From the NCBI GenBank assembly GCA_903869365.1, contig CAIPYV010000076.1, forward strand, positions 1-39,187: a stretch of 39,187 nt of DNA, read 5' to 3'. The first letter of the stretch is position 1. Every line of letters starts with the position of its first letter. The stretch comes from an uncultured Chlorobiaceae bacterium (GTDB taxonomy: Bacteria > Bacteroidota > Chlorobiia > Chlorobiales > Chlorobiaceae). Shown piece by piece: positions 14,591-34,216 of this stretch. The notes beneath the pieces are model-generated. The model was not told the DNA's origin and did not search any database. It saw only the letters and a list, made by a program, of their open reading frames with translations. The position numbers were made by a program, and so were the translations under genes.

Positions 14591-16438
14591 TTATGAAGCC
14601 TTCAAATACTTGGTTATATGATCAATAAATTTATTGGCATCAAGAATCCCGACAATTCTGCTTTCAGGAATTTCCTTACCACTTTTATCAAAAAAAATGA
14701 TTCCGGGAGGCCCGAAAAGCCCAAATCGCTTCATTAAGGCACGATCATCATCGGTATTTCCAGTGACATCCACCTGGAGCAGGGTAAGGTTCTTGAACTG
14801 TTCAAGAACCTTTGGGTCATGAAAGGTAAACCGATCCATCTCCTTGCAAGCCACACACCAGTCTGCAAAAAAATCAAGCATAACAGGCTTGTTGGATGAT
14901 TGAAGCGCACGGTCAAGATCCGCAGTCGATCGGATACGGGTAAAATTCACCTTCTTCTCTTCACCTGAACCTGCCGTCGATATCGATGCTGCATGAAATT
15001 GCGCAAGGGGTTCCAGAGCATTCGTCCCGCCTGAAGCCGCTCCGACAAGTTCAAACACTCCGATAATAAACAAGACGATGCCAAAAGTTTTTCCAAAACG
15101 CTGGGCAATGGAGAGCTTGTCGGGCGAAGCTTTGAAAACACCAAGAAAAACCGCACAAAGTATGGCGAAAGCACCCCAGAAAAGCATGACCGCCGGAGCT
15201 GGTAGAATTGGTGAAACCATCCAGATAGCCACTGCGATCAACAGAAGACCGAACACATATTTAACACCGATCATCCATGCACCGGCCTTCGGCAACAGAC
15301 TGCCCGCAGACAACCCGACAAGCAGCAGGGGAACACTCATTCCCATCGCCATCGAAAAAAGGGCGAGGCCACCGAGAAACACATCACGTGTCTGGCTGAT
15401 ATAGACCAGAGTACCGGCAAGAGGAGCAGCAACGCAGGGGCCGACAATAAGTGCTGATAAAGCTCCCATAATAAAGACCCCTGCAAAACGGCCACCCTTT
15501 AAATTCCTTGATGTGTTGTTCAGTTTGTTTTGGATGGAGACCGGCATTTGCAGCTGATAAACATCGAACATCGAAAGAGAAAGAACCACGAGCAGTAGAG
15601 CAAACACCGCGAGAACCCATGGCTTTTGCAATGCGCCGGCAAGCCCCTCACCAGCTAATCCCGCCGCTACACCCAGACTGGTATAAACCAACGCCATTCC
15701 CAGACAGTACGCGACCGCCATTAAAAAGCTGCGGCGACGATTCACATCTCCCTCCCCAACAATAATTGAAGAAAGAATGGGTATCATCGGCAGAACACAA
15801 GGAGTAAAAGACAACAGCAGACCGAAGGCAAGAAACGCAAAAGAGATTTTCCACAAGCTTCCACCCGCAAGAGTGGCTTTGGCAAGAGAAAGATCATTGT
15901 CAGCAGTACTCTCTTTCGCCGTTCCCTGAGTAATCGGTTTATCCGTTCCAGGAGTATCTGTCACCGCCTGCTCAACCGCTGGCGAAAGTAACCCGGGCTT
16001 CTTAGGATCAACCTTGAAAAGACGAGTCATTGGTGGATAACAGAGGCCATCCTCAGCGCACCCCTGATACTCAACATGCAGAGTAAAGAGACCATCAGCC
16101 TTGACCAGAGGCACGTCAACCGTCAACTGGTCATGGTAGATCTCAATTTTTTCGCTGCCTGCAGGATCAGGTACCTTGATGCCTTTGGGTAAAACAGGCT
16201 GCTTCAACTCAGCGCTCCCGCTTTCAACACTGATCTTCACCTTGTCACGATAGAGCTTATACCCTTTGGCTATATCCCAATGCACGACAACTGAGTGGTT
16301 GTTCTTCAACTCCGCCTTGACATTGAAAGCCTGTTCCGGATCAAGAAAATCAGTCGCAAAACAAGCATGTACCCGAAGAAAAAGGGCAATCAGAGCGACA
16401 AAAAAAACGGCGTACCGCTTAAAAAAGTAATGATTCAT
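14591..16438 (-). CDS. dsbD: DsbD, thiol:disulfide interchange protein (transmembrane electron donor)
   Basis: This is a full-length three-domain DsbD of 615 residues. It has a signal peptide at about 1-28 and an N-terminal periplasmic domain with the redox pair Cys127/Cys133 (GCAEDGLCYPP). Eight membrane segments follow, with the conserved FTPCVLPMIP and VGPCVAAPLAG cysteines, then a C-terminal thioredoxin domain with Cys528/Cys531 (ADWCVACKEMD). It carries reducing equivalents from cytoplasmic thioredoxin to periplasmic partners. The gene lies downstream of TlpA, DUF4266 and ApbE in one direction. It could keep the TlpA-like protein and cytochrome c apoproteins reduced, which fits the many c-type cytochromes encoded further upstream. 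Confidence 0.93.
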   Translation of the reverse strand: MNHYFFKRYAVFFVALIALFLRVHACFATDFLDPEQAFNVKAELKNNHSVVVHWDIAKGYKLYRDKVKISVESGSAELKQPVLPKGIKVPDPAGSEKIEIYHDQLTVDVPLVKADGLFTLHVEYQGCAEDGLCYPPMTRLFKVDPKKPGLLSPAVEQAVTDTPGTDKPITQGTAKESTADNDLSLAKATLAGGSLWKISFAFLAFGLLLSFTPCVLPMIPILSSIIVGEGDVNRRRSFLMAVAYCLGMALVYTSLGVAAGLAGEGLAGALQKPWVLAVFALLLVVLSLSMFDVYQLQMPVSIQNKLNNTSRNLKGGRFAGVFIMGALSALIVGPCVAAPLAGTLVYISQTRDVFLGGLALFSMAMGMSVPLLLVGLSAGSLLPKAGAWMIGVKYVFGLLLIAVAIWMVSPILPAPAVMLFWGAFAILCAVFLGVFKASPDKLSIAQRFGKTFGIVLFIIGVFELVGAASGGTNALEPLAQFHAASISTAGSGEEKKVNFTRIRSTADLDRALQSSNKPVMLDFFADWCVACKEMDRFTFHDPKVLEQFKNLTLLQVDVTGNTDDDRALMKRFGLFGPPGIIFFDKSGKEIPESRIVGILDANKFIDHITKYLKAS

Positions 16439-16480
16439 AGAGTAATCGGAAAAAAATTATGAGATTCTTCAGAAACCACT

Positions 16481-17383
16481 TTACGTATTCTTGTAATACA
16501 TCTCGCCAAGATGATCCACAGCAAGATATCCCATCCCGGAATCTTCCAGAAAAGCCAATCCGTCAGCCTCTTTCAGCATTGCTATAGTCGAGTAGCTCCC
16601 GGCCGTAATGGCTAAAGGAGCCACAACCGTCACTGAACGCCAGTAGGTGACCGGATACCCTGAGCGTGGATGAATAATATGGCAGTAGCGATGGCCGTCC
16701 ACTTCAAAATAACGCTCATAATCGCCGCTTGTCGCTAATGCTCCGGTAACGAGAGGAATCGAAGCAATCGTACGGCCTTTATGACGCGGATCCTGAATCC
16801 CTATCAACCAGGGAGTTTCGTCAGGTTTTGGACCAACCACCCGTATATCCCCGGCAAGGTTAACATACCCATACCTGATACCTTTACTATAAACCAGAGC
16901 CGCAGCCCGATCAGCCGCATACTCTTTACCGAAGCCACCAAAATCTATCTCCATCTGTGCAACAGGTAAACGAATGGAGTTACCCTGACGCTCGACACTC
17001 TGCCAGTGAATCAAGCTGCATTGCCTCCTCAATACCTGCTGATCAGGCACCACAGCTTTTCCAAAATCCCAGGCCTTGCGCAAAACACCTGCCGTAATAT
17101 CAAACAGTCCACCACTGTTTTCATACAACGTATCAGCATACTGAAACAAGGAAAGTGTCTCAGCATCACACTCAACCAGCTCATCACCTGCAGCTGCGTT
17201 GATCCGCGAAACGATACTTTCCGGCCTGTAACGGGAGTACTGACGCTCTATTCTCGAAACTTCTTCAATGGCACACCCGGCAATTGACTGCGCTTCCTTT
17301 TTACTGACCCCTGCAATAACTATCTCACAGCCACATCCCATGGCTTCAAATCGAAAATGAAAGCTATCCATACTCCTCTTCAT
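16481..17383 (-). CDS. apbE: ApbE-like FAD:protein FMN transferase
   Basis: This 300-residue ApbE-family protein has the typical blocks SRIERQYSRYRPES, DFGGFGKEYAADRAA, YVNLAGDIRVVG, ATSGDYERYFEVDGHRYCHIIHP and a late TAGSYSTIAML. The enzyme attaches FMN from FAD to Thr/Ser of target proteins. The N-terminus (MKRSMDSFHFRFEAMGCG) shows no signal peptide or lipobox. An in-frame TGA a few codons upstream rules out a longer protein, so it seems cytoplasmic. A second ATG at 17371 is an alternative start. It sits between the DUF4266 lipoprotein and DsbD. Candidate targets in the locus are the two DUF3570 proteins, each with a Dxx(S)GA(S) motif. Confidence 0.9.
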   Translation of the reverse strand: MKRSMDSFHFRFEAMGCGCEIVIAGVSKKEAQSIAGCAIEEVSRIERQYSRYRPESIVSRINAAAGDELVECDAETLSLFQYADTLYENSGGLFDITAGVLRKAWDFGKAVVPDQQVLRRQCSLIHWQSVERQGNSIRLPVAQMEIDFGGFGKEYAADRAAALVYSKGIRYGYVNLAGDIRVVGPKPDETPWLIGIQDPRHKGRTIASIPLVTGALATSGDYERYFEVDGHRYCHIIHPRSGYPVTYWRSVTVVAPLAITAGSYSTIAMLKEADGLAFLEDSGMGYLAVDHLGEMYYKNT

Positions 17384-17411
17384 TATACATTGTCAGCCAC
17401 TGAGAGGTTTT

Positions 17412-17651
17412 TTAATTACAGCCGCAGCCCCCGCCGCCGACTCCAGCGCCCCCTGATGCCGCCTCTTTGCTGCTATAGATATGCTCAGTGTACTTCGTAT
17501 CAAGCGGATCACCCTCAAAGGTCATTTCAGGCCTGGCGAGCGTCTCTTTTTCCCATGGCTGAACCGCAGTACCAAGAGCACAGCCCGATAAACCAAGCAT
17601 AATCATCAAAAGCAGAGCATAAACCGGTTTTTGAAAGAGATTTTTCTTCAT
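17412..17651 (-). CDS. DUF4266 small lipoprotein with Gly/Cys-rich tail
   Basis: This 79-residue protein has a lipoprotein signal (lipobox LSGC, Cys about 24) and the DUF4266-type core AVQPWEKETLARPEMTF...YTEHIYSSKEAASGG. Its unusual C-terminus is GAGVGGGGCGCN, two cysteines separated by one glycine at the very end. It overlaps the TlpA gene by ATGA (4 bp). DUF4266 genes commonly travel with DUF3570, TlpA-like and ApbE genes, as here. The function is unknown. The CGC end could bind a metal or be a thiol target of TlpA/DsbD (inference). Confidence 0.85.
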   Translation of the reverse strand: MKKNLFQKPVYALLLMIMLGLSGCALGTAVQPWEKETLARPEMTFEGDPLDTKYTEHIYSSKEAASGGAGVGGGGCGCN

Positions 17652-18160
17652 TTCTTTGCCTCCAATGCAGCCTTGATTTGTTTTTCAAGACTTTCCCGAT
17701 CAGCATCTTTGAAGCCCAAATGCTGGAATATTATTTTGCCGTCACGACCAATAAGAAAACTTGTGGGCATGCCTTTTACTCCATAATTCCTTGGCACAAC
17801 CCCTTTGGAATCAAAAGCAATAGTGAATTTTGCAGGTATTTGAGCCAGAAACTTTTTCGCATCCTCACTTTTTGAATCAAGGTTGACGCCAATGATCTTC
17901 AGCCCCTGAGAGCGGTATTTTTCCTGTGTATCATTCATCCACGAAAACGACTGCCTGCACGGGCCACACCACGATGCCCAGAAATCAACATAAACCACAG
18001 AACCAGCTGTTTTCGAAAGCTTGACCGTGCCCTGCTCACCCGGCAGTTCAAAATCTGGCGCATTACTACCAACCTCAAGCGCGTATGATACCCCGCTGGT
18101 CATAAAAAAGAATAACGCAAGAAGGATAACCCGAATGTTTTTACTCTTAAAGTTTACCAT
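17648..18160 (-). CDS. TlpA-like periplasmic thioredoxin
   Basis: This 170-residue protein has an N-terminal export signal (about 8-27). The TlpA/ResA-type thioredoxin fold has the active site WASWCGPCRQ (Cys65/Cys68), with the cis-Pro loop in GMPTSFLI. Such proteins reduce periplasmic disulfides, for example in cytochrome c apoproteins or dedicated partners. The start ATG at 18160 gives a proper signal peptide. The longer frame to 18235 adds a non-typical leader. It overlaps the DUF4266 gene by 4 bp and follows the first DUF3570 gene by 84 bp. Confidence 0.9.
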   Translation of the reverse strand: MVNFKSKNIRVILLALFFFMTSGVSYALEVGSNAPDFELPGEQGTVKLSKTAGSVVYVDFWASWCGPCRQSFSWMNDTQEKYRSQGLKIIGVNLDSKSEDAKKFLAQIPAKFTIAFDSKGVVPRNYGVKGMPTSFLIGRDGKIIFQHLGFKDADRESLEKQIKAALEAKK

Positions 18161-18244
18161 AGTCGGAGATTTGAATTGAAAAAAATTATTTATAGAACAA
18201 ACAAGATTATAAGAACGTCGAAGCACATCCCGCATAATGAGCTG

Positions 18245-19480
18245 TCAAAACTCCCTTGAAACACCGAGCTGAATACTTCTTGCCTTCAACGGAGTCAATC
18301 TCTTATCCCCTCCGCCCGACAAACTCCACTGGGCACGTTGTTCATACTGCTCATATTTGGCATCAACAAGCCAATCTTTATTGATTTGTTTACTGACCTT
18401 CAAGCCGAGAGTAGCCGCTCCAAATGCCGACAGGCGCTGGTCTTCCGAATAATAGACGGCACCTGCAGGCGGTGGAGTTGGTTTGGTCGGATCAGCCAGC
18501 TCTGCAGCGCCAACAGCAAGATAAAAGTCAGCCTCGTTTTGCGTATAGAGCCGGACAAGAGGCGAAACACTCCAACCTTTAAACACAGGCTGAACATACT
18601 CAGCATCAAACGTATGAGCACGGATACCAAAGGTGTCTGAGTAATAGCGATAGGAGAGATGGACAGTCCCGTCGGTGCCATTATCATCAAAATGGTGGTT
18701 CCATCTGGCTAAAGCAGTAACACTGTTGCGCTCCCTTGGCCTGCTGTCATAGAGTTTATAGGGATCCGAGTAGTAACCTTTTCCATTAGAGTATGCAAAA
18801 TTGAGCTGGACAATGTCCACCGGGGTTAACACCCTCGTCAATCCAACCAATCCAGCCGCAACCTGTTTTGTTTCATCAAGATTCGGTTGATTTTCAGGAT
18901 TGATGGAATCGTTGTTGAAGCTGCCGCCAAGAGTAACCGTCGTGTTTTTATCTTCCGTCGATAGACTGCCCTTAACCGAGAGACCGCGGGAGACATAATC
19001 GGACTCTGTGGAATAGCTGGTACTGGCGCTCAGAGTTCCCCTCGAAAAATACCGTGTAAGCTGAACATCAACTGCCCGACGCAAATCTTTCATCGTGGTC
19101 AAACCCGATGAGTGATACGCTGGAGATGCACCGGAAACCGAATCAGAGGTATACGTCGTCCCTACAGACCATTTACCGGCTACCGGAACCACGGCCATCA
19201 TCGTGTAAGCATCAACCCCAATCCGGTTCTGGTAACCAGAGCTTGATGAGCTTGATGCCGCCACAGAAGATGCCCCTGAAACAGTATTTACTCCATTGGC
19301 ATTACTTCCTGACTGAGTAACAATTCCCTGACTGTCCTGATAATTAAGATATTTAAAACTCACGACACCTCGTTCCGGCACAGCATCCCCATAAGCGAAC
19401 TCCACAGATGGCAAAGCCAAAGCGGCAGTAAGAAGAGCGGTACCAATAACTGTTGACGTTGTTGTCGAAACTGATTTCAT
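18245..19480 (-). CDS. DUF3570 outer-membrane beta-barrel protein (copy 1)
   Basis: This 411-residue protein has a signal peptide (about 1-31). The DUF3570 start block (ERGVVSFKYLNYQDSQ) is followed by repeated amphipathic strands and a C-terminus ending SIQLGVSREF, an aromatic last residue typical of outer-membrane barrels. Residues 113-119 (DSVSGAS) match the ApbE flavinylation consensus Dxx(S/T)GA(S/T). Relative to copy 2 it carries an extra Ser/Gly-rich insert at about 57-82. It lies upstream of tlpA, DUF4266 and apbE. The start at 19480 is preferred over an in-frame ATG at 19516 because it gives a normal signal peptide. The function is not established. A role in redox at the cell surface is inferred from context. 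Confidence 0.88.
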   Translation of the reverse strand: MKSVSTTTSTVIGTALLTAALALPSVEFAYGDAVPERGVVSFKYLNYQDSQGIVTQSGSNANGVNTVSGASSVAASSSSSSGYQNRIGVDAYTMMAVVPVAGKWSVGTTYTSDSVSGASPAYHSSGLTTMKDLRRAVDVQLTRYFSRGTLSASTSYSTESDYVSRGLSVKGSLSTEDKNTTVTLGGSFNNDSINPENQPNLDETKQVAAGLVGLTRVLTPVDIVQLNFAYSNGKGYYSDPYKLYDSRPRERNSVTALARWNHHFDDNGTDGTVHLSYRYYSDTFGIRAHTFDAEYVQPVFKGWSVSPLVRLYTQNEADFYLAVGAAELADPTKPTPPPAGAVYYSEDQRLSAFGAATLGLKVSKQINKDWLVDAKYEQYEQRAQWSLSGGGDKRLTPLKARSIQLGVSREF

Positions 19481-19616
19481 AATGTTCTCGGGTGTTAAGA
19501 TTGAGATGAAATGCATCTTTTCTGATATACCATTATTATAACTGCTATTTCTGTATACCGTTATGAAAGATGTAAATGCACCAAAAACTTAACTATTGTT
19601 GCTGTAGTATCCAAAG

Positions 19617-21650
<2,034 letters not shown>

Positions 21651-21733: not shown

Positions 21734-22855
21734 CTAAAAGTGTCGCGACAAGCCAAGTTGAATACTTCTCGCTCTGAATCGAGCCAAACCTGTGTCTCCG
21801 CCTCCGGTTATACACCATTCGGCACGCTGCTCGTAACTCTCTAATTTTGCATCAACAAGCCAATCCTTGGCAATTTTTTTCTCAAGTTTGATGCCGATCG
21901 TTATGGCGCCAAAAGCAGAAAGGCGCTGATCCATAGAATAATAGGTGGGCAGATCTGCTGAGGGATCAGGAAAATCGGATAGATAAAAATCTGCGGCAGT
22001 TTGTGAGTAAAGTCTCACGAGCGGCGTTACCGTCCACTCTTTTGGCAGTGGCTGGACATATTCCACACCAAAAGTATGTGCTTTAATACCATAAGTGTCG
22101 GTATAATAGCGGTAAGAAATTCTGGAAGTTCCGTCTTTTCTATCAAAATGATGGTTCCATCGAGTCATGACCGTCTTGCTTTCCCGCTTGTCCGGCCTTT
22201 CGTCAAACAACTTGTACGGATCACTATTATAGCCCTTGGCCCTCGAATACCCGATATTAAGCTGCACGATGTCCTGCTTCGTCAAAACCCGTGTAACACC
22301 AATCAGCGCTGAAACGCCCCTTTTGTCATAAAATAAATCTTTATTGACGGTCGGGTTGATGGTATCGGAGGTATAACTGCCGCCGAAAGTGAAGGTTGTA
22401 TTCTTATCCTCTGTCGAAATGCTCTCCTGTGCTGAATAACTGCGCGAAATGTAATCGTTCTCCTTTGAATAGCTGCTTCCCAAGGTGACCGATCCTGATT
22501 GAAGGTAGCGCGTAACACTCAGATCAACAGCTTCACGGTGGTCTTTCATCTTGGAAGCACCTGAAACTATATGAGAATTATATTCCGGAGATGCACCCGA
22601 AACAGAATCATTGGTGTAGGTCGTACTTATCGACCATTTTCCTGCTATTGGCGCCATACCCATAACCGTATAGGCATTGACGGTCACTCTCTCCTGATCA
22701 GGTTGGCTGTCTTTATAATTCAGATACTTGAAACTGACAAGACCACGTTCCGGTGCAGCTTCAGCAAACACGCTCTGAGATAATGGCAGGGACATAGCTG
22801 CAGCAAAAAGGGCCGCTCCTATAACATTTGTTGTTTGTTTCGTGACAGATTTCAT
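21734..22855 (-). CDS. DUF3570 outer-membrane beta-barrel protein (copy 2)
   Basis: This 373-residue paralogue of the protein at 18245-19480 shares its signal peptide type (MKSVTKQTTNVIGAALFAAA...), the ERGLVSFKYLNYKDSQP block, and the C-terminal barrel end SIQLGLSRHF. Residues 83-89 read DSVSGAS, an ApbE-type flavinylation motif, and a second SGAS follows at 98-101. The frame stays open upstream to a TTG at 22924, but the ATG at 22855 gives the clean signal peptide and has GGGG about 8 bases before it. Upstream lie a DUF4266 tail remnant and an 11-bp-period TTAAG array. It is the first intact gene of this leftward locus. Confidence 0.88.
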   Translation of the reverse strand: MKSVTKQTTNVIGAALFAAAMSLPLSQSVFAEAAPERGLVSFKYLNYKDSQPDQERVTVNAYTVMGMAPIAGKWSISTTYTNDSVSGASPEYNSHIVSGASKMKDHREAVDLSVTRYLQSGSVTLGSSYSKENDYISRSYSAQESISTEDKNTTFTFGGSYTSDTINPTVNKDLFYDKRGVSALIGVTRVLTKQDIVQLNIGYSRAKGYNSDPYKLFDERPDKRESKTVMTRWNHHFDRKDGTSRISYRYYTDTYGIKAHTFGVEYVQPLPKEWTVTPLVRLYSQTAADFYLSDFPDPSADLPTYYSMDQRLSAFGAITIGIKLEKKIAKDWLVDAKLESYEQRAEWCITGGGDTGLARFRARSIQLGLSRHF

Positions 22856-22886
22856 TGGTAGTGCCCCAATATTTAGAATTACATTT

Positions 22887-22922
22887 AATTGCAGCCGCAG
22901 CCGCCAACACCTGAGACCTCTC
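22887..22922 (-). pseudogene. Remnant of a DUF4266 gene (C-terminal tail only)
   Basis: On the - strand the codons after an in-frame TGA read E-V-S-G-V-G-G-C-G-C-N-stop. This copies the end of the intact DUF4266 lipoprotein (S-G-G-A-G-V-G-G-G-G-C-G-C-N-stop at 17412). No recognisable DUF4266 sequence lies further upstream. It sits 32 bp before the second DUF3570 start, so an ancestral DUF4266-DUF3570 pair was probably lost to deletion. Confidence 0.6.
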
Positions 22923-23083
22923 AAGCTGTTATGATATGCCCCTGTCTGCCTTCAGAATCTTTGTTGCCTTATGAGATATTGATATAATCTCATTGATGCC
23001 TTTAATGGAAATCAGGGGGTATAATCACTAAACAAACTGCGAATTATAGCAGTTACATAACATGATAATAGTAATCAATAGTA

Positions 23084-23316: not shown

Positions 23317-23916
23317 TTATTTTGCAAGTTTTATAGCTACAGTGGCAGTTTTACCATCCGCTACAGTTACTGAGGTCTCCTGTGCTTTGAGTTTTTCGCT
23401 CCAGGCAGTAATTTTGTAGGTTCCAGCAGGAACATTGTTAATAGTGAACTTTCCATCATGCTCGGAGACAGCGGCATATTGATTTTCCGTCACTACCACC
23501 CAAGCTGACATTTCGGAATGAACATTACAGAGCAAATTAATGGCACCAGGCTTGTCAAAGGTAACAGGCTTTGACATTCCAGGATTATAGGTACCAAGAT
23601 TGAATTTTTTTGCAGCTGATGCGGAAAATATATTGTGATTGACCTTATCATCATTTTTAAAGTCAACCGTTGAGCCAACCGGTACAGCTGTTACATGAGG
23701 AACAAAGACAAGGCTTTTCTGATCAACAGAAGCATGCTGCGGCGTAACAGGGCCCTTCACACCTAAAAGATAAACAACAGCGTCACCCTTGTACTTTGGA
23801 ATGCTTGCATCAACGGTACCAGTAATGGTGCCACCGCAAAAAGCATTCGAAGCGATGAACCCGAAACTTGTCATCAACAATGCTGTTTTCAAAAACTTGG
23901 TTTTACATGTAACCAT
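23317..23916 (-). CDS. Periplasmic cupredoxin with C-terminal CarboxypepD_reg-like domain
   Basis: This 199-residue protein has a signal peptide (about 1-27). It contains a cupredoxin domain with a type 1 copper set, His94 (NHNIFS) and Cys130/His133/Met136 (LLCNVHSEM). A C-terminal beta-sandwich (about 150-199: HDGKFTINNVPAGTYKITAWSEKL) resembles carboxypeptidase regulatory-like repeats. Such fusions are often annotated as methylamine-utilisation-type or plastocyanin-like proteins. It would carry single electrons in the periplasm, or bind copper. The ATG at 23916 is chosen over 23928 because GGAG lies 6 bases before it. It is the last gene before the terminator and a plausible soluble partner of the bc complex and cytochromes. 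Confidence 0.85.
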   Translation of the reverse strand: MVTCKTKFLKTALLMTSFGFIASNAFCGGTITGTVDASIPKYKGDAVVYLLGVKGPVTPQHASVDQKSLVFVPHVTAVPVGSTVDFKNDDKVNHNIFSASAAKKFNLGTYNPGMSKPVTFDKPGAINLLCNVHSEMSAWVVVTENQYAAVSEHDGKFTINNVPAGTYKITAWSEKLKAQETSVTVADGKTATVAIKLAK

Positions 23917-23996
23917 TTTCTGCTCCATAAATTAGGTTATTAATAAATATTTTTTTCTGGATCGATATCATACAACTGACAAATGCAATGTTTCGT

Positions 23997-24443
23997 TCAA
24001 CTGCCTGCAAGGGTTTTTATATAGGCAACAATAAACTCTGTCTCCTCGCTATGAAAAGATTTTCCCCATGGAGGACACATGTTTGACTTTCCAACCGATG
24101 CAGAACCTTCGTTGATCGCTTTAAAGAGTTTATCGTCCGGCAAGGTTTTCATAAACGCCTTATCGGTAAAATTAGCGGGTGTTGGCGTCAATCCGTAATA
24201 CTGCCCACTTCCATCACCGGTCTCTCCGTGACATACCGCACAGTAGTGGGAAAAAAGTCGCTTGCCTTCCTTTAAAGCATACGGGATCTTCTGCCCGGCG
24301 ACCGCTGCTGAATCGACAGCAACGTCCGGGTTTTTTTGACCAGCTTTACCAGCTTTGCCCTGCTTCTTGCCACAGCCTGCTATCACAAGCATCGAAAGAG
24401 CTGCAAGGAGAGCGATCTTCCTGATTTTTAGGATTTTTTGCAT
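23997..24443 (-). CDS. Monoheme c-type cytochrome lipoprotein
   Basis: This 148-residue protein has a lipoprotein signal (lipobox VIAGC, Cys24), a Lys/Gly-rich spacer, and a class I cytochrome c domain with CAVCH (68-72). The C-terminal helix is ETEFIVAYIKTLA, and a Met in SNMCPPWG is the possible axial ligand. Lipidation would tether it in the periplasm. Its ATG overlaps the stop codon of the eight-heme gene by one base (TAATG), so the two are translationally coupled and probably work together. Confidence 0.9.
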   Translation of the reverse strand: MQKILKIRKIALLAALSMLVIAGCGKKQGKAGKAGQKNPDVAVDSAAVAGQKIPYALKEGKRLFSHYCAVCHGETGDGSGQYYGLTPTPANFTDKAFMKTLPDDKLFKAINEGSASVGKSNMCPPWGKSFHSEETEFIVAYIKTLAGS

Positions 24444-27058
24444 TACTTGGCGTCCAGTTTCAGTGTCATCAAATAGTTAGTTAAGTAAATTCTTTCCGTC
24501 TCTGTGAAGCCGTAATTAGGCTCAACAATATCGGCTTTGAATTTCCGTGCATTTTCAAGATGCTTGAAAATGAATCCAGGTTTCAAGCGGTTACCCACAT
24601 TCGTCAAATTAGGTCCAAGAGCTCCACCTTCCGTAACTATCTGATGACAAGCCTTGCAGCCCTTCTGCTCATAGAGCTGCTTGCCCTTGGCGACCTGTTC
24701 CGGTAAAGTCATCGAGGTGATTTTCGGTATCTCTTTCGGAATATCGCTTGAAAGAAGCTCCTGCTGGAAAAAGTTAATAACAACATCAACATCCGTTTTG
24801 TTCGTATCCTCAACCTTCTGTTTACCAAGATTGAACCTCGGCATGGTAACCTTAGCCTGAGGTTTTCCCGATGTCAGACCGAACTTCGGCATCTGCTGCA
24901 AGAGCGGTCGTATCACATCCGGGTTGGCAAGGAAGTTGCGAATCCATCCTTCCTGCAGTTTGCTGCCAGCAATAGAGATATCTGGCGCATAATCTGCTCC
25001 GATCCCACGGATCGCATGGCAATTGGTACATTTGACATCAGCAATGACCTTGGCGAAGTCCCCTGTGAATTTATACGAAGGCACACCAGCCATTCTATCG
25101 AGTTCCTGACGTGAAGGAACAAGAAAACGAGTAGGAACACTTGCATCAGTAAAACCGTAAAGAACTGCAGCCAATTCATTGATCTCTGACTCGGCCAGAC
25201 GGAAATTAGGCATCCGTAATCCAAGCCGATAGCCCCTTGGATCTCTCAGTTTCTGCTTGATATAACTCAAACGGTCATTGGGAATGGATTTCTTGAGCTT
25301 TCCAAAATCAAGCATATCTACAGGCTTGCTTCCAATAGAGGAGAGCTCCATTCCAATCTTTTCGCGCATTTCATTATTTCTAAGGAAGGTAACACCCTGC
25401 TTCCTCAGAGATGGAGCAACCTGAACCATATCCTCCATACCCTGAAGCTTATGGCAGCCATAGCAGCCATATTTCTGTATCAGCTCTTTTCCTTTTACAA
25501 TAGAGGCCGCCTTGATCTCAACAGGCTGAACATATTTATACTCCGCCTCTTCATCCTGATACTCAGTTGTTATGTAAGCAACAAGTCCATTGATCTCCTC
25601 ATCTGTAAAGCGGAAACGGGGCATCTTGGTACCAGGGAAATAGTCGTTTGGATTTTTAATCCATTTAAACATCCACTCCTTGTTGACCTTGCTACCGACT
25701 TTACTTAAATCCGGTGCATAGACTTTAACATTATTTCCCCCTCTCCCACCAGTGATATGGCAGAGATTACAGCGCGACTGTGCCCACAATGCCTTACCTT
25801 GCTCAATAAGCTTTGCATCAGGTTTGTTCTTGGTATTATCAACATCATGGCGTGTTGTTCCTGACATGCTGAACAGATAATCAGCAATAGACTCTGCCTG
25901 ATCCTGAGTAAAATAGAACTTGGGCATTCTCGCTGTTGCAAAGTATTTCTTAGGATCCATCAACCAGTTGATAGCCCATGAATAATTAACCTTGGAACCA
26001 ACTTGAGTAAGAACTGGCCCTACATCACCAACAGTCTCATAACCAGGAATTTTGTGGCAGCTGTAGCAACCATACTTCTTGATCAGCTCAGTACTTTTGA
26101 TAATCTTTTCTGCACCTCGAAGCCCTTTGATATCACCATGACAGTTCAGGCACGATGTCTGTGTCATGTCACCCTGAAGCATCGGCTCATCCCAATGCTT
26201 GATATTACCATGTGCCTTTTCAGCCGAAGTTGTCGCACGGCCTTGCCCACGATGGCAGAACGTACAACCAAACTTGGCTGGATCATGATGATCAAGATAG
26301 ACAAAACTTGCCGGATGCCTTGTGAAAGGTTGCTTGCCTGAAACCTGACTTTTGCCATCTATTCCTATGTGGCACGATTGGCATCGATCAGCTTTGTCAA
26401 CGTCCGATATATGAATCTGCTTGATCTCAATCGGAAATTTCTCATTATTGGCAATCTTCTCCTTTTTCTCCTCAAGACCATTTTTCATGTTCGCTATTTC
26501 GGCCCTGATACCTGCCGTTACAGAAGTAAGAGACGATAATGAACTCTTGAGAGACTCTTCAGCTTTCTGCTGTGCAGCAACACGCAGTGCAACAGCATCA
26601 ATACTGCGCTGAAGCACATCCATCTTCGCCTTATAATCTGGCTGTTGTGTTTTAGTGAAGTAATACTCAGTTTCAAGAAACTGCCCTCGAAAATCTCTTA
26701 GCTCTTTCTGGCTTTTCGTAAGCGTTTCATGAGCAGCTTCAAGCTGGCTGTTCAGCTTTGCAAACTTTTCCTGATTCTCTTTGCTTTGAAAAACCGCTTC
26801 CGCCTTTTCAAGCTTGGACTCCAGCTCAGCAAGCTTTCTATGTCCACCAGATCGTTCAAATTCAACAACTGCACGACGATACTCCTTTTCAAGTTTATCG
26901 TGCTTCATGCTCTTATATTCCGCCTGGTATTTTTTCCATGGCCTCAGGCCAAATTCATCATCCCATACTACCCATACAGATAGCGCTAACAATACTACAC
27001 TGAAAAACACAAAGATGTAGAGCCTTAAGGATGAGCTGCTTTTATTCTCATTCGCCAT
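24443..27058 (-). CDS. Membrane-anchored eight-heme c-type cytochrome with coiled coil
   Basis: This 871-residue protein has one N-terminal membrane helix (about 11-33), then a long Lys/Glu-rich coiled coil (about 45-205). The periplasmic part has eight CXXCH sites, at about residues 226, 265, 303, 331, 430, 532, 677 and 801. The last five hemes sit in repeated cytochrome c-like modules with the pattern 'CxxCH...GP/APDLS..GSKV...W...W(I/L)..P...F....MP.F..T..E...'. The ATG at 27058 is preferred over an in-frame TTG two codons upstream. It directly follows the two cytochrome b-type genes in the operon and likely takes the place of cytochrome c1 or f in the complex. I know no named family that covers the full architecture. 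Confidence 0.9.
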   Translation of the reverse strand: MANENKSSSSLRLYIFVFFSVVLLALSVWVVWDDEFGLRPWKKYQAEYKSMKHDKLEKEYRRAVVEFERSGGHRKLAELESKLEKAEAVFQSKENQEKFAKLNSQLEAAHETLTKSQKELRDFRGQFLETEYYFTKTQQPDYKAKMDVLQRSIDAVALRVAAQQKAEESLKSSLSSLTSVTAGIRAEIANMKNGLEEKKEKIANNEKFPIEIKQIHISDVDKADRCQSCHIGIDGKSQVSGKQPFTRHPASFVYLDHHDPAKFGCTFCHRGQGRATTSAEKAHGNIKHWDEPMLQGDMTQTSCLNCHGDIKGLRGAEKIIKSTELIKKYGCYSCHKIPGYETVGDVGPVLTQVGSKVNYSWAINWLMDPKKYFATARMPKFYFTQDQAESIADYLFSMSGTTRHDVDNTKNKPDAKLIEQGKALWAQSRCNLCHITGGRGGNNVKVYAPDLSKVGSKVNKEWMFKWIKNPNDYFPGTKMPRFRFTDEEINGLVAYITTEYQDEEAEYKYVQPVEIKAASIVKGKELIQKYGCYGCHKLQGMEDMVQVAPSLRKQGVTFLRNNEMREKIGMELSSIGSKPVDMLDFGKLKKSIPNDRLSYIKQKLRDPRGYRLGLRMPNFRLAESEINELAAVLYGFTDASVPTRFLVPSRQELDRMAGVPSYKFTGDFAKVIADVKCTNCHAIRGIGADYAPDISIAGSKLQEGWIRNFLANPDVIRPLLQQMPKFGLTSGKPQAKVTMPRFNLGKQKVEDTNKTDVDVVINFFQQELLSSDIPKEIPKITSMTLPEQVAKGKQLYEQKGCKACHQIVTEGGALGPNLTNVGNRLKPGFIFKHLENARKFKADIVEPNYGFTETERIYLTNYLMTLKLDAK

Positions 27059-27123
27059 GTTCAAGAGTTTTTTTGGGCTTTTAGAATGACCATTTACCGT
27101 ATACCAGAGCTTATTGACCAGCG

Positions 27124-28008
27124 CTAAACGCTAAACCACGGGGTTATCCATACATACTTGATAAGAAAAACCAGCCTGAGAACCATCTTGATAGGGATGG
27201 CCATCATGGTTATAAACAAAAAGATGATGGTGACATACCTGATCATACCCAACTGAGTGAGCAGTTCAGGATTATTTTTCTTCCAGTACCTGTACGGAGC
27301 AATCATACCTCCAACCATATAGGATCCCACAACTACTGCACCAATGATAAACCCTGCAAGAGATCTCGATTCAATACCTATGAGGGCTGTCAAATCCCTG
27401 GTAGGCTCGAACACAACTCTCGAATGATCCCACTCCTGCCATGGCCAATACCACAGCCAACCCGGTCCTCTGAAAAAAACTCCGATGACAATCAAAAGAA
27501 GCCAGAGAACAAAAAATCCAAATGAGAAAATGATGATTGAATATTTTCTCTCTGCAAAAGTATAATAACCATTTCCCTTGGGATTGATATCGATATAGGG
27601 AATTGCAAGCAGGCCGACAACAATCAATGAAGGCAGCACAACACCTGCAAGCCACGGATCGAAATAGACCAGAAGTTCCTGAAGACCGAGAAAATACCAC
27701 GGTGCCTTTGCCGGATTTGGGGTTAAAGTCGGGTTGGCAATTTCCTCCAAAGGAGCATCAACCAATATCGACCATACCGTAAGACCAACCATGACAACGA
27801 GAGCAATAATCAACTCAATGCGCACAAGCGGTTTGAAGGTATCGACAAACCGATCGTTCTCGCCGTCAACAGGAAGTCCCGCTGCAAGAAGCCTGTCATT
27901 CTGATAGGCTTGCTGAAAAGCCCATACCATATAAAACGACACCATAATGACCATGATCACAATGGCGATATTATCAGGCTGGGTAATGATTTCAATAAAA
28001 GGGTTCAT
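27124..28008 (-). CDS. Cytochrome b subunit IV-like protein (bc complex)
   Basis: This membrane protein of about 294 residues has a first short helix, then the subunit IV/C-terminal cytochrome b core. The Qo-site region reads NPAKAPWYFLGLQELLVYFDPW, the PEWY-loop position in a 'PWYF' form known from some bacterial split bc complexes. Additional helices extend it beyond the about 160 residues of PetD. There are no heme-binding motifs. It is encoded 20 bp after the b6-like gene, so the cytochrome b is split as in b6f-type complexes. The ATG at 28008 is used rather than an upstream TTG. Confidence 0.88.
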   Translation of the reverse strand: MNPFIEIITQPDNIAIVIMVIMVSFYMVWAFQQAYQNDRLLAAGLPVDGENDRFVDTFKPLVRIELIIALVVMVGLTVWSILVDAPLEEIANPTLTPNPAKAPWYFLGLQELLVYFDPWLAGVVLPSLIVVGLLAIPYIDINPKGNGYYTFAERKYSIIIFSFGFFVLWLLLIVIGVFFRGPGWLWYWPWQEWDHSRVVFEPTRDLTALIGIESRSLAGFIIGAVVVGSYMVGGMIAPYRYWKKNNPELLTQLGMIRYVTIIFLFITMMAIPIKMVLRLVFLIKYVWITPWFSV

Positions 28009-28028
28009 AATCAACTATGCCCGTTCTG

Positions 28029-28802
28029 TTATTTTTGAGGTTTTGAAATTCCACCATCTTTTCTGACTCGCCAGAAATGAACCAACATCAAAATGGTAGC
28101 TACAAGTGGAATAGCAACACAATGCCAGATATAAGATCTGAGCAGCGCATTGCCGCCAACCTGCGCACCACCAAGAAGCGCAAAACGCACATCATTGTAT
28201 GGAGTTATATGAAGATACTCACTGAATGGCCCCTGATATCCAAGTAACGGGGTAGCAGCGCCCATATTTGTTCCAACAGTTATCGCCCAGAAACCAAGCT
28301 GATCCCATGGTGTGAGATATCCGGTAAAACTCAAAAGAAAAGTCAGTACCAGCAGAATAACTCCAACACCCCAGTTGAACTGACGAGGAGCTTTATAGGA
28401 TCCTGTCATGAACACACGGAACATGTGAATCATCACAACAATAACCATGAAGTGCGCTCCCCACCGATGGAGATTTCGGAGAATAACACCAAAGGGTACC
28501 TGAAATTCAAGATCCTTGATATCGGTGTAGGCCTGGTCTATTGATGGATGGTAATAAAACATCAAAACAACACCCGTTATAATAAGAATGATAAAGGCAA
28601 AAAAAGTAATACCTCCCATTCCCCAGGTAAACCGAAGCTTGACGGCACTTTCACGGACCTGCACAGGATGCAGATGAAGAAAGACGTTGCCGAATACAGC
28701 CTGGGCACGGTCTCGTACAGTATTACGGTAATCTCGTCTGAATACGGATTTCCATATCAGATTCTTTTTGACTTTGTCAGTTATCTCTGGTAGGCTTTTC
28801 AT
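28029..28802 (-). CDS. Cytochrome b6-like subunit (bc complex)
   Basis: This 257-residue protein has four main membrane helices. The two b-heme ligand pairs are visible: His112 and His126 (LHRWGAH...IHMFRVF, spacing 14), and His227 and His242 (YIWHCVA...LVHFWRV, spacing 15). The 14/15 spacing is the b6-type pattern. The N-terminal region has no cysteine equivalent to the one that binds the extra c-type heme in b6f, so that heme may be absent. It forms the quinol-oxidising core together with the subunit IV-like protein and the Rieske protein encoded in the same operon. Confidence 0.92.
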
Positions 28803-28832: not shown

Positions 28833-29171
28833 TTACTGATACCCTCGCAACCTCTTTAACTGCCTCTCATAATCGGCTTCATCCTTGCGCGAGCCGTCCG
28901 GATTAACCATCTCGACCCCTGTCCACGGGCAATCTATGGCACATATATTACAGCCCGTACAACTCTCATCCACTTGAGCAATACCGGTAAAATTCAAATC
29001 GGACTCTACAATTGTTATGGAATTTGATGGACAGGTTTGAACACAAATCCTGCAGCCGGTGCAGAGCTCCGAAATAACCCTTGCCGCCGCACGTTTACGC
29101 GCTCCGGAAACTCTCTGCAATGGCGATGGATTCCGTAGCGCCGTTATCTTTTCATCACTACCCATGTTCAT
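28833..29171 (-). CDS. 2x[4Fe-4S] ferredoxin-type protein in the bc operon
   Basis: This 112-residue protein has two full cluster motifs: Cys37/40/43/47 (CTGCRICVQTCP) and Cys71/74/77/81 (CTGCNICAIDCP). A basic N-terminal extension and a charged C-terminal tail flank them. There is no signal peptide or Tat motif, so it acts in the cytoplasm. A low-potential ferredoxin inside a Rieske/cytochrome b operon is unusual. It may link the complex to cytoplasmic NAD(P)H or ferredoxin pools, or be a peripheral subunit. It lies 24 bp after the Rieske gene and 30 bp before the b6-like gene. Confidence 0.88.
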   Translation of the reverse strand: MNMGSDEKITALRNPSPLQRVSGARKRAAARVISELCTGCRICVQTCPSNSITIVESDLNFTGIAQVDESCTGCNICAIDCPWTGVEMVNPDGSRKDEADYERQLKRLRGYQ

Positions 29172-29195: not shown

Positions 29196-29768
29196 TCACA
29201 CTCTCAACAAACTCTCAGGATACACCTCATTGGACTCCTTTCCCGGAACACCTGGATATTTTATTGTCTTGTCGACCAGGAGCTGGCCGTCTTCAGCAAT
29301 ACTTATTTTAAAGCGATCCATCGGTCTTGGTGCAGGCCCTTCAAAATTCAAGCCTGTGATATAATAACCACTCCCATGGCAGGGGCATTTAAATTTTTTC
29401 TGCGCTTCCATCCAGCTGGGCGTACACCCAAGATGGGTGCATTTTGTCTCCATGGCAAAGAAACTGCCATCCTGGAGTCTGATAATCCATGTACTGAACT
29501 CCCGTTGATACTGGGAATTGACAGCCCCTGGAGGATAATCCGCCGGAAGCCCGACCTTGAACTGAGATGGCGGTTCAAACAGTACCCTCGGGTACAAAAA
29601 CCTCAAAAAAGCTGCTGAATTCAGGGCGAGGAACCCTGCAAGACCTCCCCAACCTACACGGGTCAGAAATTTCCGCCGTGCGCTGGACTCAGCCGCGCCA
29701 CCATCACTCTTCCCCTGACCAAATTTTTCTTCCTGTTGCTCTGTTACGAGCTCTCTGTCATCCTGCAT
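29196..29768 (-). CDS. Rieske iron-sulfur protein
   Basis: This 190-residue protein has a Tat-like twin-arginine N-terminus (SARRKFLTRVGWG, about 29-41) followed by one membrane helix. The Rieske fold holds the [2Fe-2S] ligands Cys110-Thr-His112 and Cys128-Pro-Cys130-His131, with Cys115 and Cys130 as the disulfide pair (CTHLGC...CPCHGSG). It is the high-potential electron acceptor at the quinol oxidation site of the bc complex encoded just downstream. It is separated from the Cyc2-like gene by 173 bp that contain a hairpin. Confidence 0.93.
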   Translation of the reverse strand: MQDDRELVTEQQEEKFGQGKSDGGAAESSARRKFLTRVGWGGLAGFLALNSAAFLRFLYPRVLFEPPSQFKVGLPADYPPGAVNSQYQREFSTWIIRLQDGSFFAMETKCTHLGCTPSWMEAQKKFKCPCHGSGYYITGLNFEGPAPRPMDRFKISIAEDGQLLVDKTIKYPGVPGKESNEVYPESLLRV

Positions 29769-29941: not shown

Positions 29942-31192
29942 TTAAAACGCCAAAGCAGTGTTCAATGTAAAGGTGTTTTGATTGTTTTCACCACTTGTTG
30001 ATGTTGGTAGTGTGCCCTTGGTGAAAAGCTTGTACGAAGCAGCTACAGAAACATTGGCCCTGAGCCATGCTGTAACCGAAGTTGTGACCGTGGGATTATT
30101 CTGATCAACACCTACCACACCAAGATTAGCGTACCTCACCCTTGCCAGAAGCCATGGATAAACATAATACCCTGCATCAACCGCATAGTTGCTCAACTGC
30201 AGATCACTATCCTTACTGTACGCAACACCGGCTGTCAAGTTGCCATAGTTTCCGGCAATATCTGCACCGTAAACTAACGTTTCATTCGCATAATTGCCAG
30301 TTGTATAGACACCTTTGTTTGCATTAACCAAACCAGCACCAATAGCCAGACTGTTGTCAAGCCCGACATACTCATTACCGTAGACACCGCCAGCACCGCT
30401 CAGCAGGCCTGCACCGAACAATTTATATTTTGCTCTTATATACCGGGTATCATCAAGCTTGTTGGTATTAATGTTAGGGATTGTTGCTGTTGAGGTAGGC
30501 GCACTGGCAACACCGGCAATAAGATTGAAGCCACCCTCTTTACCTACAGTGTAATTGAATTCCGTACTTGTACCTGATCCAGGAAATACACCTGTGTATA
30601 CCGAAATTGGGCTTGCGGCACCAGACCATGCACTGAATCCATCACCAAAACCGACGTTAACACCTGGAGCAAACGCCCAAGTTACTCGCAGGTTGGTTGT
30701 TGTAGCTCCCTTGACAAAGTTCTCCAAAGCACCGACAACACCGATATTTTCTCCGACTGTACCACCAAACAAAATACGAGCATCAATAGGGCCACCCTGA
30801 TACAAAGTTTGTTGCTTGGTAACCACGCCTTTATTATTCGTTACCTGATCAGCATAATTGACCAGGGGACCTGTAATATACAACGCAAACGGAGCAAAGC
30901 CCGGAATATCAGTCGGCCAAGGTGAACTTGGGAAAGTTTCCTTCCAGCCCGCGGCACCCATTTTTGTCTGTTCCTGCTTGGCATGATCCTCTTCCTCTCC
31001 ACCCGGCCAACGGTAACCGTTGTTCTTGAATGCTTCACCAAAGGCATTCCTGATCGGGAAACCGGAATGGCAGGTATAGCATGATGTCTGATACTTTCTC
31101 GCAAACGCAGGCACAGCGGAACTGTCCTGGCTCCAGAACAAGGCTGGTACCATGCAAAGCGATGCAATTGATGCAAAGGTCGATTTTCTCAT
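29942..31192 (-). CDS. Cyc2-like porin-cytochrome fusion (single heme c)
   Basis: This 416-residue protein has a signal peptide (about 1-26). A single heme site CYTCH (38-42) lies in the block VPAFARKYQTSCYTCHSGFP...FGEAFKNNGYRWPGG, the N-terminal heme-plug signature shared with Cyc2-type outer-membrane cytochromes. The rest is beta-strand-rich Gly/Ala/aromatic sequence ending TFTLNTALAF, as in an outer-membrane barrel. Proteins of this type pass electrons across the outer membrane; true Cyc2 oxidises Fe(II). This sequence also resembles a broader porin-cytochrome family of unknown donors, so the exact substrate is unproven. It is the first gene of the operon with a bc complex and periplasmic cytochromes. 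Confidence 0.78.
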   Translation of the reverse strand: MRKSTFASIASLCMVPALFWSQDSSAVPAFARKYQTSCYTCHSGFPIRNAFGEAFKNNGYRWPGGEEEDHAKQEQTKMGAAGWKETFPSSPWPTDIPGFAPFALYITGPLVNYADQVTNNKGVVTKQQTLYQGGPIDARILFGGTVGENIGVVGALENFVKGATTTNLRVTWAFAPGVNVGFGDGFSAWSGAASPISVYTGVFPGSGTSTEFNYTVGKEGGFNLIAGVASAPTSTATIPNINTNKLDDTRYIRAKYKLFGAGLLSGAGGVYGNEYVGLDNSLAIGAGLVNANKGVYTTGNYANETLVYGADIAGNYGNLTAGVAYSKDSDLQLSNYAVDAGYYVYPWLLARVRYANLGVVGVDQNNPTVTTSVTAWLRANVSVAASYKLFTKGTLPTSTSGENNQNTFTLNTALAF

Positions 31193-32183: not shown

Positions 32184-33422
32184 ATGATGGTTGTTCGGCG
32201 TCAGTGGTTTCAGACTCCATGGGAGTTCAGGGAATCTGCTCTTTTTTCTGCACTTGCTGTCACTGCAGGTTTTGCCATTCAATTTGCGGCTTCGGGGAAC
32301 GGTATTGCAATGCCGCACTTACCCTTTAATGCAATAGCACTCTCTCTTTTAGCTGCTATCGTATTGATAACCGGCTTGGTTTTCAGGAACACTCCTGTTG
32401 TCAAATGGTTCGGCGGTATCCCTCTTGGACTTTGCCTGATTCTGGCAATCGCTCTTCTCTCATTGATTGGCGGAGTGGTACCTCAGCAGGCCGCAGCAAA
32501 AAGCTCGCTGCCGGCACTGTTCGGCTTGAATCAGATTTTTTCAAGCTGGCCATTTGCTCTTACTGTATTGCTGTTTCTTGCCAACCTCGGTATTTCGCTT
32601 TCATGGAAACTTGTACCGTTTAAACCGCAGAACATCCAGTTTATCCTGTTTCATGCAGGGTTCTGGATCGCCCTGTCATGCGCCGTTGTCGGCAGCGGCG
32701 ATCTTCAACGACTCGTGGTACCGATCAATGTAGGGAAAGCAAATAACCTTGGCTATACCATGGAAAGCGATACCCCGCAGCAGCTGCCGTTTTCTATTTT
32801 TCTGCATGACTTTTCGCTTGAAGAGTATCCTCCCCAGCTGCTCCTTTACGACCCGCATAACGACAAGCTCCTGATGAACAAGTCACAGGCAATTCTGGAG
32901 GTACGGAAGGGGACAACCGCAACATGGCAGGGAATTGAAGTTCTGGTACTCGACTACTTACCCTATGCTCTTCCGGGAAAAGACGGAATACCTCAACCTG
33001 CAGCGCGCGCTGCAGGCATCCCTTTTGCAAAAGTCAGGATCAACACCGCATCTTCACTACGCGAGGCTTGGATCAGCACCGGCAGTCCCTTGCTGAAACC
33101 TGATGCGGCTCAACTTGACGGGCTCTATCTTATCATGGTGCCGGGCACGCCAAAAGCATTCCGTTCGGCAGTAACCGTGCAGGATACAAAGGGTCATGAA
33201 ATCATGGCAAATCTTGAGGTAAACCATCCGGTCAATTTTTTCGGATGGAAACTCTATCAGATGGGCTATGATGAAAAAGCCGGTCGATGGTCAAAGTTAA
33301 GCCTGATCGAAGTGATTCATGATCCATGGCTGCCAGCGGTTTATCTTGGATTTTTTATGATCATGGCAGCGAACATTCTCTTTTTCTGGAGTGGAATTAA
33401 ACGAACAGAGGCTAAAAAATGA
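32184..33422 (+). CDS. ResB/CcsB-like cytochrome c biogenesis protein (system II)
   Basis: This 412-residue protein has about four membrane helices in the first 185 residues and a large periplasmic part (about 185-375, with DFSLEEYPPQLLLYDP and LEVNHPVNFFGWKLYQMGYDE). A final membrane helix precedes the basic end (PWLPAVYLGFFMIMAANILFFW). The 'NHP..F.GWKLYQ.GYD' block is characteristic of ResB-like proteins, which together with CcsA/ResC export heme and attach it to apocytochrome c. It overlaps the next gene by 4 bp (ATGA). A second ATG at 32187 is an equal alternative start. Confidence 0.88.
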   Translation: MMVVRRQWFQTPWEFRESALFSALAVTAGFAIQFAASGNGIAMPHLPFNAIALSLLAAIVLITGLVFRNTPVVKWFGGIPLGLCLILAIALLSLIGGVVPQQAAAKSSLPALFGLNQIFSSWPFALTVLLFLANLGISLSWKLVPFKPQNIQFILFHAGFWIALSCAVVGSGDLQRLVVPINVGKANNLGYTMESDTPQQLPFSIFLHDFSLEEYPPQLLLYDPHNDKLLMNKSQAILEVRKGTTATWQGIEVLVLDYLPYALPGKDGIPQPAARAAGIPFAKVRINTASSLREAWISTGSPLLKPDAAQLDGLYLIMVPGTPKAFRSAVTVQDTKGHEIMANLEVNHPVNFFGWKLYQMGYDEKAGRWSKLSLIEVIHDPWLPAVYLGFFMIMAANILFFWSGIKRTEAKK

Positions 33423-34216
33423 TAGTGAATTTTAACACTGCAGCTTGGGTGGCTATTATATGCTGGGCGATTGGTTCTGTACTCAGTCTCCTTGCAAATC
33501 GAACTCGCATCCTTAAACTTCCTGCTTTTGTTCTCTCTTTTGCGGGTTCAGCAGTAATGGCTGGATTTATTGCATTTTACTGGTCGGCTCTCGACCGTCC
33601 ACCTCTTAGAACACTTGGCGAGACCCGACTGTGGTATGCAGCCCTCATTCCGCTCGTCGGCTTTCTTGTTGAGTACCGCTGGAAAATCGGATGGCTGAAG
33701 TACTACTGTATGGCGCTCGCGGCATTTTTCCTCGGCATCAATATGCTTCATCCTGAAGTCTTCGACAAGACGCTGATGCCTGCGCTGCAAAGCCCCTGGT
33801 TTATTCCTCATGTCGTGGTCTATCTTGTAGGCTATGTTATGCTTGCAGCATCTTCTATCACAGCAGTGCACAATGTCTACCTGCAGCTGAGATCCAAAGG
33901 GGATCATACCGGTGAATCTGTTTCACACTATCTGGCCCTCCTTGGTTTTGTACTCTTGACCTTCGGCCTCATCTTCGGCGCACTCTGGGCAAAAGAAGCA
34001 TGGGGTCATTACTGGACATGGGATCCAAAGGAGACCTGGGCATTTCTGTCATGGCTCGCCTATCTGGGATACCTTCATGCATTCCGCTACAAGATAGATC
34101 AGAGCAAACTGCAATGGTATCTGGCTCTTGCTTTTCTTGTGCTTCTTGTCTGCTGGTTCGGAGTTAACTATCTTCCTTCAGCACAGAACAGTGTCCACAC
34201 CTATACGCAAAGCTGA
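33419..34216 (+). CDS. ccsA: CcsA/ResC-like cytochrome c biogenesis protein (system II)
   Basis: This 265-residue protein has about eight membrane helices and the tryptophan-rich WWD-type heme-handling motif WGHYWTWDPKETW (about 195-207). The flanking heme-ligand candidates are His131 and His220. It forms the heme-delivery pair with the ResB-like protein, with which it overlaps by 4 bp. Placed next to an operon encoding ten c-type heme sites (8+1+1), it is probably the maturation machinery for those cytochromes, perhaps also for others in the cell. Confidence 0.92.
   Translation: MIVNFNTAAWVAIICWAIGSVLSLLANRTRILKLPAFVLSFAGSAVMAGFIAFYWSALDRPPLRTLGETRLWYAALIPLVGFLVEYRWKIGWLKYYCMALAAFFLGINMLHPEVFDKTLMPALQSPWFIPHVVVYLVGYVMLAASSITAVHNVYLQLRSKGDHTGESVSHYLALLGFVLLTFGLIFGALWAKEAWGHYWTWDPKETWAFLSWLAYLGYLHAFRYKIDQSKLQWYLALAFLVLLVCWFGVNYLPSAQNSVHTYTQS

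Follow-up and report, generated by a model that had tools for sequence, protein, structure and literature searches.

An eight-heme cytochrome c with a helical hairpin as the putative c1/f-replacing subunit of a second Rieske/cytochrome b complex in green sulfur bacteria

The stretch of DNA analysed here, referred to as the window, consists of positions 1-39,187 of the forward strand of contig CAIPYV010000076.1 from an uncultured Chlorobiaceae bacterium (GCA_903869365.1). Its minus strand, on which all features lie unless stated otherwise, carries an operon in the order Cyc2-like porin, Rieske protein, 2[4Fe-4S] protein, cytochrome b6, subunit IV, octaheme cytochrome, monoheme cytochrome c, and cupredoxin protein. 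The octaheme cytochrome c subunit (24443..27058) is the subject of this analysis and is an 871-residue protein with eight CXXCH heme sites, one transmembrane (TM) segment, and a helical hairpin. Its open reading frame spans 24443-27064 with the natural ATG at 27058, and at 24443 its stop codon overlaps the start ATG of the gene that follows.

The CXXCH sites of the octaheme lie at residues 226, 265, 303, 331, 430, 532, 677, and 801. Shuffling the protein 2000 times yielded a mean of 0.005 such sites and a maximum of one. The membrane anchor at residues 10-33 (26960..27031) is the sole hydrophobic segment and is also modelled as a helix over residues 10-33. It is followed by a helical region of ~165 residues (39-203) with a heptad signal. 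An earlier note on this DNA had described an eight-heme cytochrome with a single membrane anchor and a long coiled coil, and this description holds, with every complete homologue keeping all eight hemes, the TM segment, and the coil. The same note placed the heme sites in repeated modules. This is true of the five C-terminal class-I-type cytochrome c domains that carry hemes 4-8 (24455..26107; PF00034/PF13442), but not of hemes 1-3, which belong to another module (26108..26446) with conserved His248, His258, and His283. Pfam and NCBIfam scans detected class-I cytochrome c, c7/c3-like, and cbb3-type domains in the protein, and found no homology to cytochrome c1/f. Of 86 genomes from the family, 34 encode this protein. 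A scan of named genomes, restricted to close relatives, identified it in 31, which are uncultured or enriched Chlorobiaceae, mostly lake-derived, and one member of the Chloroherpetonaceae. A plasmid search for homologues found none.

The genomic position of the octaheme is highly conserved. It lies directly downstream of cytochrome b6 and subunit IV in 28/28 Chlorobia loci with upstream sequence, and cytochrome b or subunit IV is directly upstream of an octaheme-family gene in 48/48 loci of other Bacteroidota families. The distant homologues were retrieved within the phylum by the cytochrome, not by cytochrome b. Because the gene directly follows cytochrome b or subunit IV in all of these loci, its assignment as the c-type subunit standing in for cytochrome c1/f, which the earlier note had proposed, is well supported by genomic context. 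Homologues thus lie next to bc genes in 76 loci, contrary to the note's refuting case in which they would always be encoded elsewhere.

The remaining core subunits are those of a bc-type complex. The Rieske protein (29196..29768; PF00355) aligns with both the CTHxGC and CPCHGS boxes of the bc1/b6f superfamily, in the form of CTHLGC and CPCHGSGY. The cytochrome b6-like protein (28029..28802; PF00033, E 1.7e-40), whose closest solved chains are cytochrome b6, is encoded together with an extended subunit IV-like protein (27124..28014; PF00032) of about 6-7 hydrophobic segments, and both Pfam matches are over the cut-off. By alignment, the Qo motif of this subunit IV is APWY. PEWY is typical of this motif, with variants occurring in known complexes. 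The host genome has one other Rieske/cytochrome b pair, on contig C80, and this pair has PEWY. The operon Rieske also keeps the Ser and Tyr that are established to raise the cluster potential, whereas the other Rieske of the host has Ala for Ser, and the operon Rieske is therefore predicted to be of high potential. In this cytochrome b6 the heme cN cysteine is missing, with a Gly in the alignment where solved cytochrome b6 chains have the Cys of FYCLGGIT.

An AlphaFold2 model of the whole octaheme cytochrome, with 25 homologues in the alignment, is confident only for the TM segment and the hairpin. It predicts helices at residues 39-69, 72-90, 93-137, and 140-203, with a predicted local distance difference test (pLDDT) score of 80-91 over most of the region. 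Breaks at 70-71, 91-92, and 138-139 divide the region into a 31-residue stem and subsequent arms of 66 and 64 residues. The coil is a coiled coil as first described, but not a single rod, as residues 72-203 (26450..26845) are predicted to fold back into an antiparallel helical hairpin with a turn near residue 138. Near the tip both arms display a heptad period of 3.55, with shuffles reaching at least the observed signal in 0.55% and 0.25% of cases. The VIA-align matches to residues 88-179 are antiparallel hairpins, including the seryl-tRNA synthetase arm, the LSD1 tower, and prefoldin, with the synthetase arm (6h9x) giving a Z of 9.8 and a root-mean-square deviation (rmsd) of 0.6 Å over 74 residues. 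Z values near 10 are common among long helices, so these matches show arrangement and not kinship. Foldseek found no match to the octaheme model at E <= 0.001, and the rows it listed were coiled coils and single class-I cytochromes.

The hairpin is absent from shorter relatives of the octaheme. The linker from a conserved Trp (in a W..Q motif after the TM segment) to heme 1 is 185 residues in Chlorobia and 191-195 in other long forms, compared to 39-47 in short forms. The gap between these classes and the near-constant lengths within them indicate that ~150 residues were gained or lost as one unit. As the hairpin is inserted in a short linker its end returns to its start, placing both ends at one base. 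Outside of this base and the membrane helix, the best-conserved stretch is a patch near the tip at residues 116-137 (26648..26713), with 2.69 bits per column in distant homologues versus 1.5-1.6 in the shafts. This patch is also the most conserved part within Chlorobia. In a circular-shift test, a wider tip window (116-158) ranked 1/154 in Chlorobia but only 14/154 in distant homologues; in the latter, residues 116-137 alone carry the signal. Conservation of this patch across distant homologues suggests that the tip docks on something that these complexes all have in common, for which the complex itself is the simplest candidate. The probable role of the hairpin is to hold on to the complex, not to take hemes across the envelope.

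Putative heme ligands were counted over 65 octaheme homologues. His248 and His258 are present in 65/65 and His283 in 60/65, which suggests bis-His ligation of hemes 1-3, while Met378, Met479, Met616, and Met739 are present in 65/65, suggesting His/Met ligation of hemes 4-7. Heme 8 differs between groups. The octaheme of the window has Glu846 at the position where oxidase-linked relatives have Met; 13/13 loci linked to COX1 have this Met, and the position is occupied by Glu or Gln in Chlorobia, in genomes G148 and G314, and in hairpin-less octaheme forms. This pattern indicates that the putative ligand of the exit heme varies with the type of operon and its partner, across the hairpin split.

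Three forms of the family can be distinguished: eight hemes with a long linker, eight with a short linker, and five with a short linker, with one match (L049) having four hemes. Three related genomes (L077, L078, L081) carry hairpin octaheme and pentaheme bc operons about 11 kb apart. A distance rule places COX1 after the complex, within the cluster, in 11 hairpin loci, a figure that rises to 13 when cut or more distant genes are counted. Cyc2-like porins are found beside hairpin forms (Chlorobia, G148) and beside hairpin-less octaheme forms (L044, L087, L089, L091), and no locus among those read has both COX1 and a Cyc2-like porin. As the hairpin occurs with COX1, and Cyc2-like porins with hairpin-less forms, the hairpin does not track the outer-membrane partner. 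The host genome also encodes a COX1-family oxidase subunit (G000:C30:58142-59422), which is unexpected in an anaerobic phototroph and may be contamination. An NAD(P)-oxidoreductase/Fe-S gene accompanies 19/19 short-linker relatives and 0/58 hairpin complexes. In a cytochrome b tree, however, the short-linker forms all group in a single clade with support of 100/98. The mutual exclusion of hairpin and NAD(P) oxidoreductase therefore counts as one event, and independent origins of it were rejected.

Taken together, the octaheme is likely to be the membrane-anchored subunit on the output side of a second Rieske/cytochrome b complex of b6f-like type, with the hairpin forming a side arm and not an outer-membrane spacer. 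Menaquinol would be oxidised at the Qo site and the Rieske cluster would pass one electron to the octaheme, whose heme domains would relay it as far as heme 8. From here it would be handed to the co-encoded monoheme cytochrome c (23997..24443; PF13442), which overlaps the octaheme stop codon and is kept after the octaheme across loci, and to the protein with cupredoxin and carboxypeptidase-regulatory domains (23317..23928; PF00127, PF13620), which has a CNVHSEM copper motif. The periplasmic pool of these two carriers may be common to the Cyc2-like porin-cytochrome of the outer membrane and, in these phototrophs, to the reaction centre. The base of the side arm would sit where relatives have a short linker, and its conserved tip would dock on a constant part, whether Rieske, cytochrome b/subunit IV, or the dimer mate. 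Several points weigh against this proposal. The physical contact of the octaheme with the Rieske/cytochrome b complex is something we infer, and the patterns of association follow clades rather than independent events. Bis-His hemes are usually of low potential, making hemes 1-3 a poor fit as the first Rieske acceptor unless they are tuned upward or bypassed. Finally, the heme domains are modelled at a pLDDT of about 30 and the geometry of the hairpin near the membrane comes from a model with a predicted template modelling score of 0.29.

The first gene of the operon (29942..31192) encodes a Cyc2-like fused cytochrome-porin. The Cyc2 signature AXPXFAR[QK][TY] was defined by Keffer et al. (PMC8406198), who also likened Cyc2 to the porins OprO/OprP. 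The porin neighbour shares this signature, as AVPAFARKYQTSCYTCH before its single CXXCH, and its model has 16 main strands with OprO/OprP as top matches (Z 20, rmsd 3.1-4.4 over 282-292 residues). It differs from Cyc2 after the heme site, where the PXL motif is replaced by PXR (PIR in the window and PNR, PTR, or PAR in near relatives), while L044 has PKL. The host genome additionally has a canonical Cyc2 on contig C127, of which the porin neighbour is a paralogue. Two more Cyc2-like porin-cytochrome paralogues (L055 and L056, on G000:C134 and C114) each adjoin a small monoheme cytochrome gene. A Cyc2-like porin-cytochrome is directly upstream in 24/25 Chlorobia loci with enough flank, with L004 lacking it. 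It can be tentatively proposed that the operon of lake green sulfur bacteria is a self-contained module coupling a Cyc2-type conduit to the quinone pool via the octaheme complex, in which heme 8 is re-ligated for each partner, with Met for the oxidase and a Met-less site for monoheme c and the Cyc2-like porin.

The near-constant presence of the porin also favours a possible alternative in which the same complex is run for outside electron exchange. This could be uptake driven by the proton-motive force, from the Cyc2-like porin through the octaheme to quinone, or disposal of electrons in the dark to Fe(III) or humics. The hosts are largely from lake metagenomes, and a Trout Bog Chlorobium has been reported with three Cyc2 homologues and photoelectrotrophy (PMC12285243). 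In addition, Chlorobium L227-S-6D has a canonical cyc2 and a small monoheme cytochrome gene inside the cluster, between the cupredoxin and thioredoxin genes (L025:13779-15788). Conversely, the presence of canonical Cyc2 shows no association with that of the octaheme in the 86 genomes (10/34 with the octaheme vs. 12/52 without; Fisher p 0.61), and a family-wide link was rejected. The Cyc2-like paralogue also lacks the PXL motif.

A bifurcating complex would make use of the 2[4Fe-4S] ferredoxin-like protein (28833..29171; PF14697), which has eight Cys, lacks a hydrophobic signal segment, and is encoded between Rieske and cytochrome b in Chlorobia. This protein could take up low-potential electrons or return those of ferredoxin to quinone in cyclic flow. 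Such a role would be analogous to the NAD(P)-reducing complexes proposed in Kuenenia, and the hairpin-less relatives do carry the NAD(P)-oxidoreductase/Fe-S gene. However, this gene is found beside none of the hairpin complexes, and the missing heme cN cysteine leaves no clear n-side exit, making bifurcation unlikely here.

The earlier note had suggested that the coiled coil could serve as a stalk and keep the heme chain at a distance from the membrane, so that the chain becomes a wire across the periplasm toward the outer-membrane barrel. A Cyc2-like outer-membrane porin-cytochrome does head the operon, and by helix geometry each ~65-residue arm could span ~100 Å. Nonetheless, the predicted structure is a hairpin and not a rod, it takes the place of a ~40-residue linker, and it also occurs beside COX1, an inner-membrane partner, while Cyc2-like porins occur with forms that lack it. 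The soluble monoheme c and cupredoxin encoded in the operon also mean that no fixed wire is needed, and both the stalk and the wire are very improbable. Also very improbable is a separate periplasmic carrier encoded beside the bc genes without being a subunit, as this conflicts with the strict gene order in 76 loci, the octaheme's own membrane anchor, and an operon that has no other anchored multiheme or c1/f-like candidate.

Replacement of cytochrome f by a multiheme cytochrome is already known. The Rieske/cytochrome b complexes Kustd1480-1485 and Kuste4569-4573 of Kuenenia stuttgartiensis have hexa- or octaheme cytochromes c in this position, and long helices of Kustd1485 wrap the complex in an AlphaFold3 model (PMC12954380). 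Tetraheme replacements are cited in PMC3578206. The Kuenenia and Chlorobia complexes share a b6-like cytochrome b, an extended subunit IV-like protein, and a multiheme cytochrome c replacing f. Kuenenia has an NAD(P) oxidoreductase and a reported heme cN, whereas both the oxidoreductase gene and the heme cN cysteine are missing from the Chlorobia complex. Rieske, cytochrome b with subunit IV, and an anchored c-type subunit are shared with bc1/b6f, from which the Chlorobia complex differs in having a hairpin, eight hemes rather than one, and APWY instead of PEWY. Hairpin octaheme complexes of other Bacteroidota (such as L043, L045, and L070) have the same Rieske-cytochrome b-subunit IV-octaheme-cupredoxin order and hairpin length class, but are followed by COX1 and have Met at heme 8 where Chlorobia have Glu. 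ExtP, ExtQ, and ExtS (NF040969, NF040970, NF040971) are among the nearest named families for cytochrome b, subunit IV, and part of the cytochrome, with all matches below the curated cut-offs (cytochrome b6 scores 259.8 bits against 290 for ExtP). The new elements are the Chlorobia/Bacteroidota family itself, its length-quantised hairpin, the NAD(P)-oxidoreductase exclusion, and the partner-dependent heme-8 ligand position; no description in green sulfur bacteria was found in the open-licence literature.

Given the adjoining gene for an iron-oxidase-like pore, the complex may connect photosynthesis to electron donors outside the cell. With a Cyc2-like porin and a dedicated bc-type complex in one conserved operon, there are named candidate genes for how photoferrotrophic or electrotrophic green sulfur bacteria bring outside electrons into their membrane chain beyond the Cyc2 step. 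The output subunit is modular, with related cytochrome b cores paired with five or eight hemes, with or without a hairpin of fixed length, and with an oxidase or a porin. Comparison across such variants allows the design rules of bc complexes to be tested.

Other genes of the window surround the operon. ResB-like and CcsA-like cytochrome c maturation genes (32184..34216, plus strand; PF05140, PF01578) lie divergent to it. On the other side, 14591-19516 and 21734-22924 encode DsbD, an ApbE flavin transferase, a DUF4266 CXC protein, a TlpA-like thioredoxin, and two proteins of the DUF3570 type, in each of which the SGAS flavinylation motif occurs twice. These correspond to the ApbE/DUF3570/DUF4266 system of PMC8238504, in which the DUF3570 protein of Chlorobium luteolum was shown to be flavinylated. 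Many Chlorobia loci, though not every one, have the ApbE/DUF3570/DUF4266 genes next to the bc operon. Between the two blocks, the product of 19617-21650 is a repetitive Big_5 Ig-like protein whose domains are separated by a long Thr-Pro repeat.

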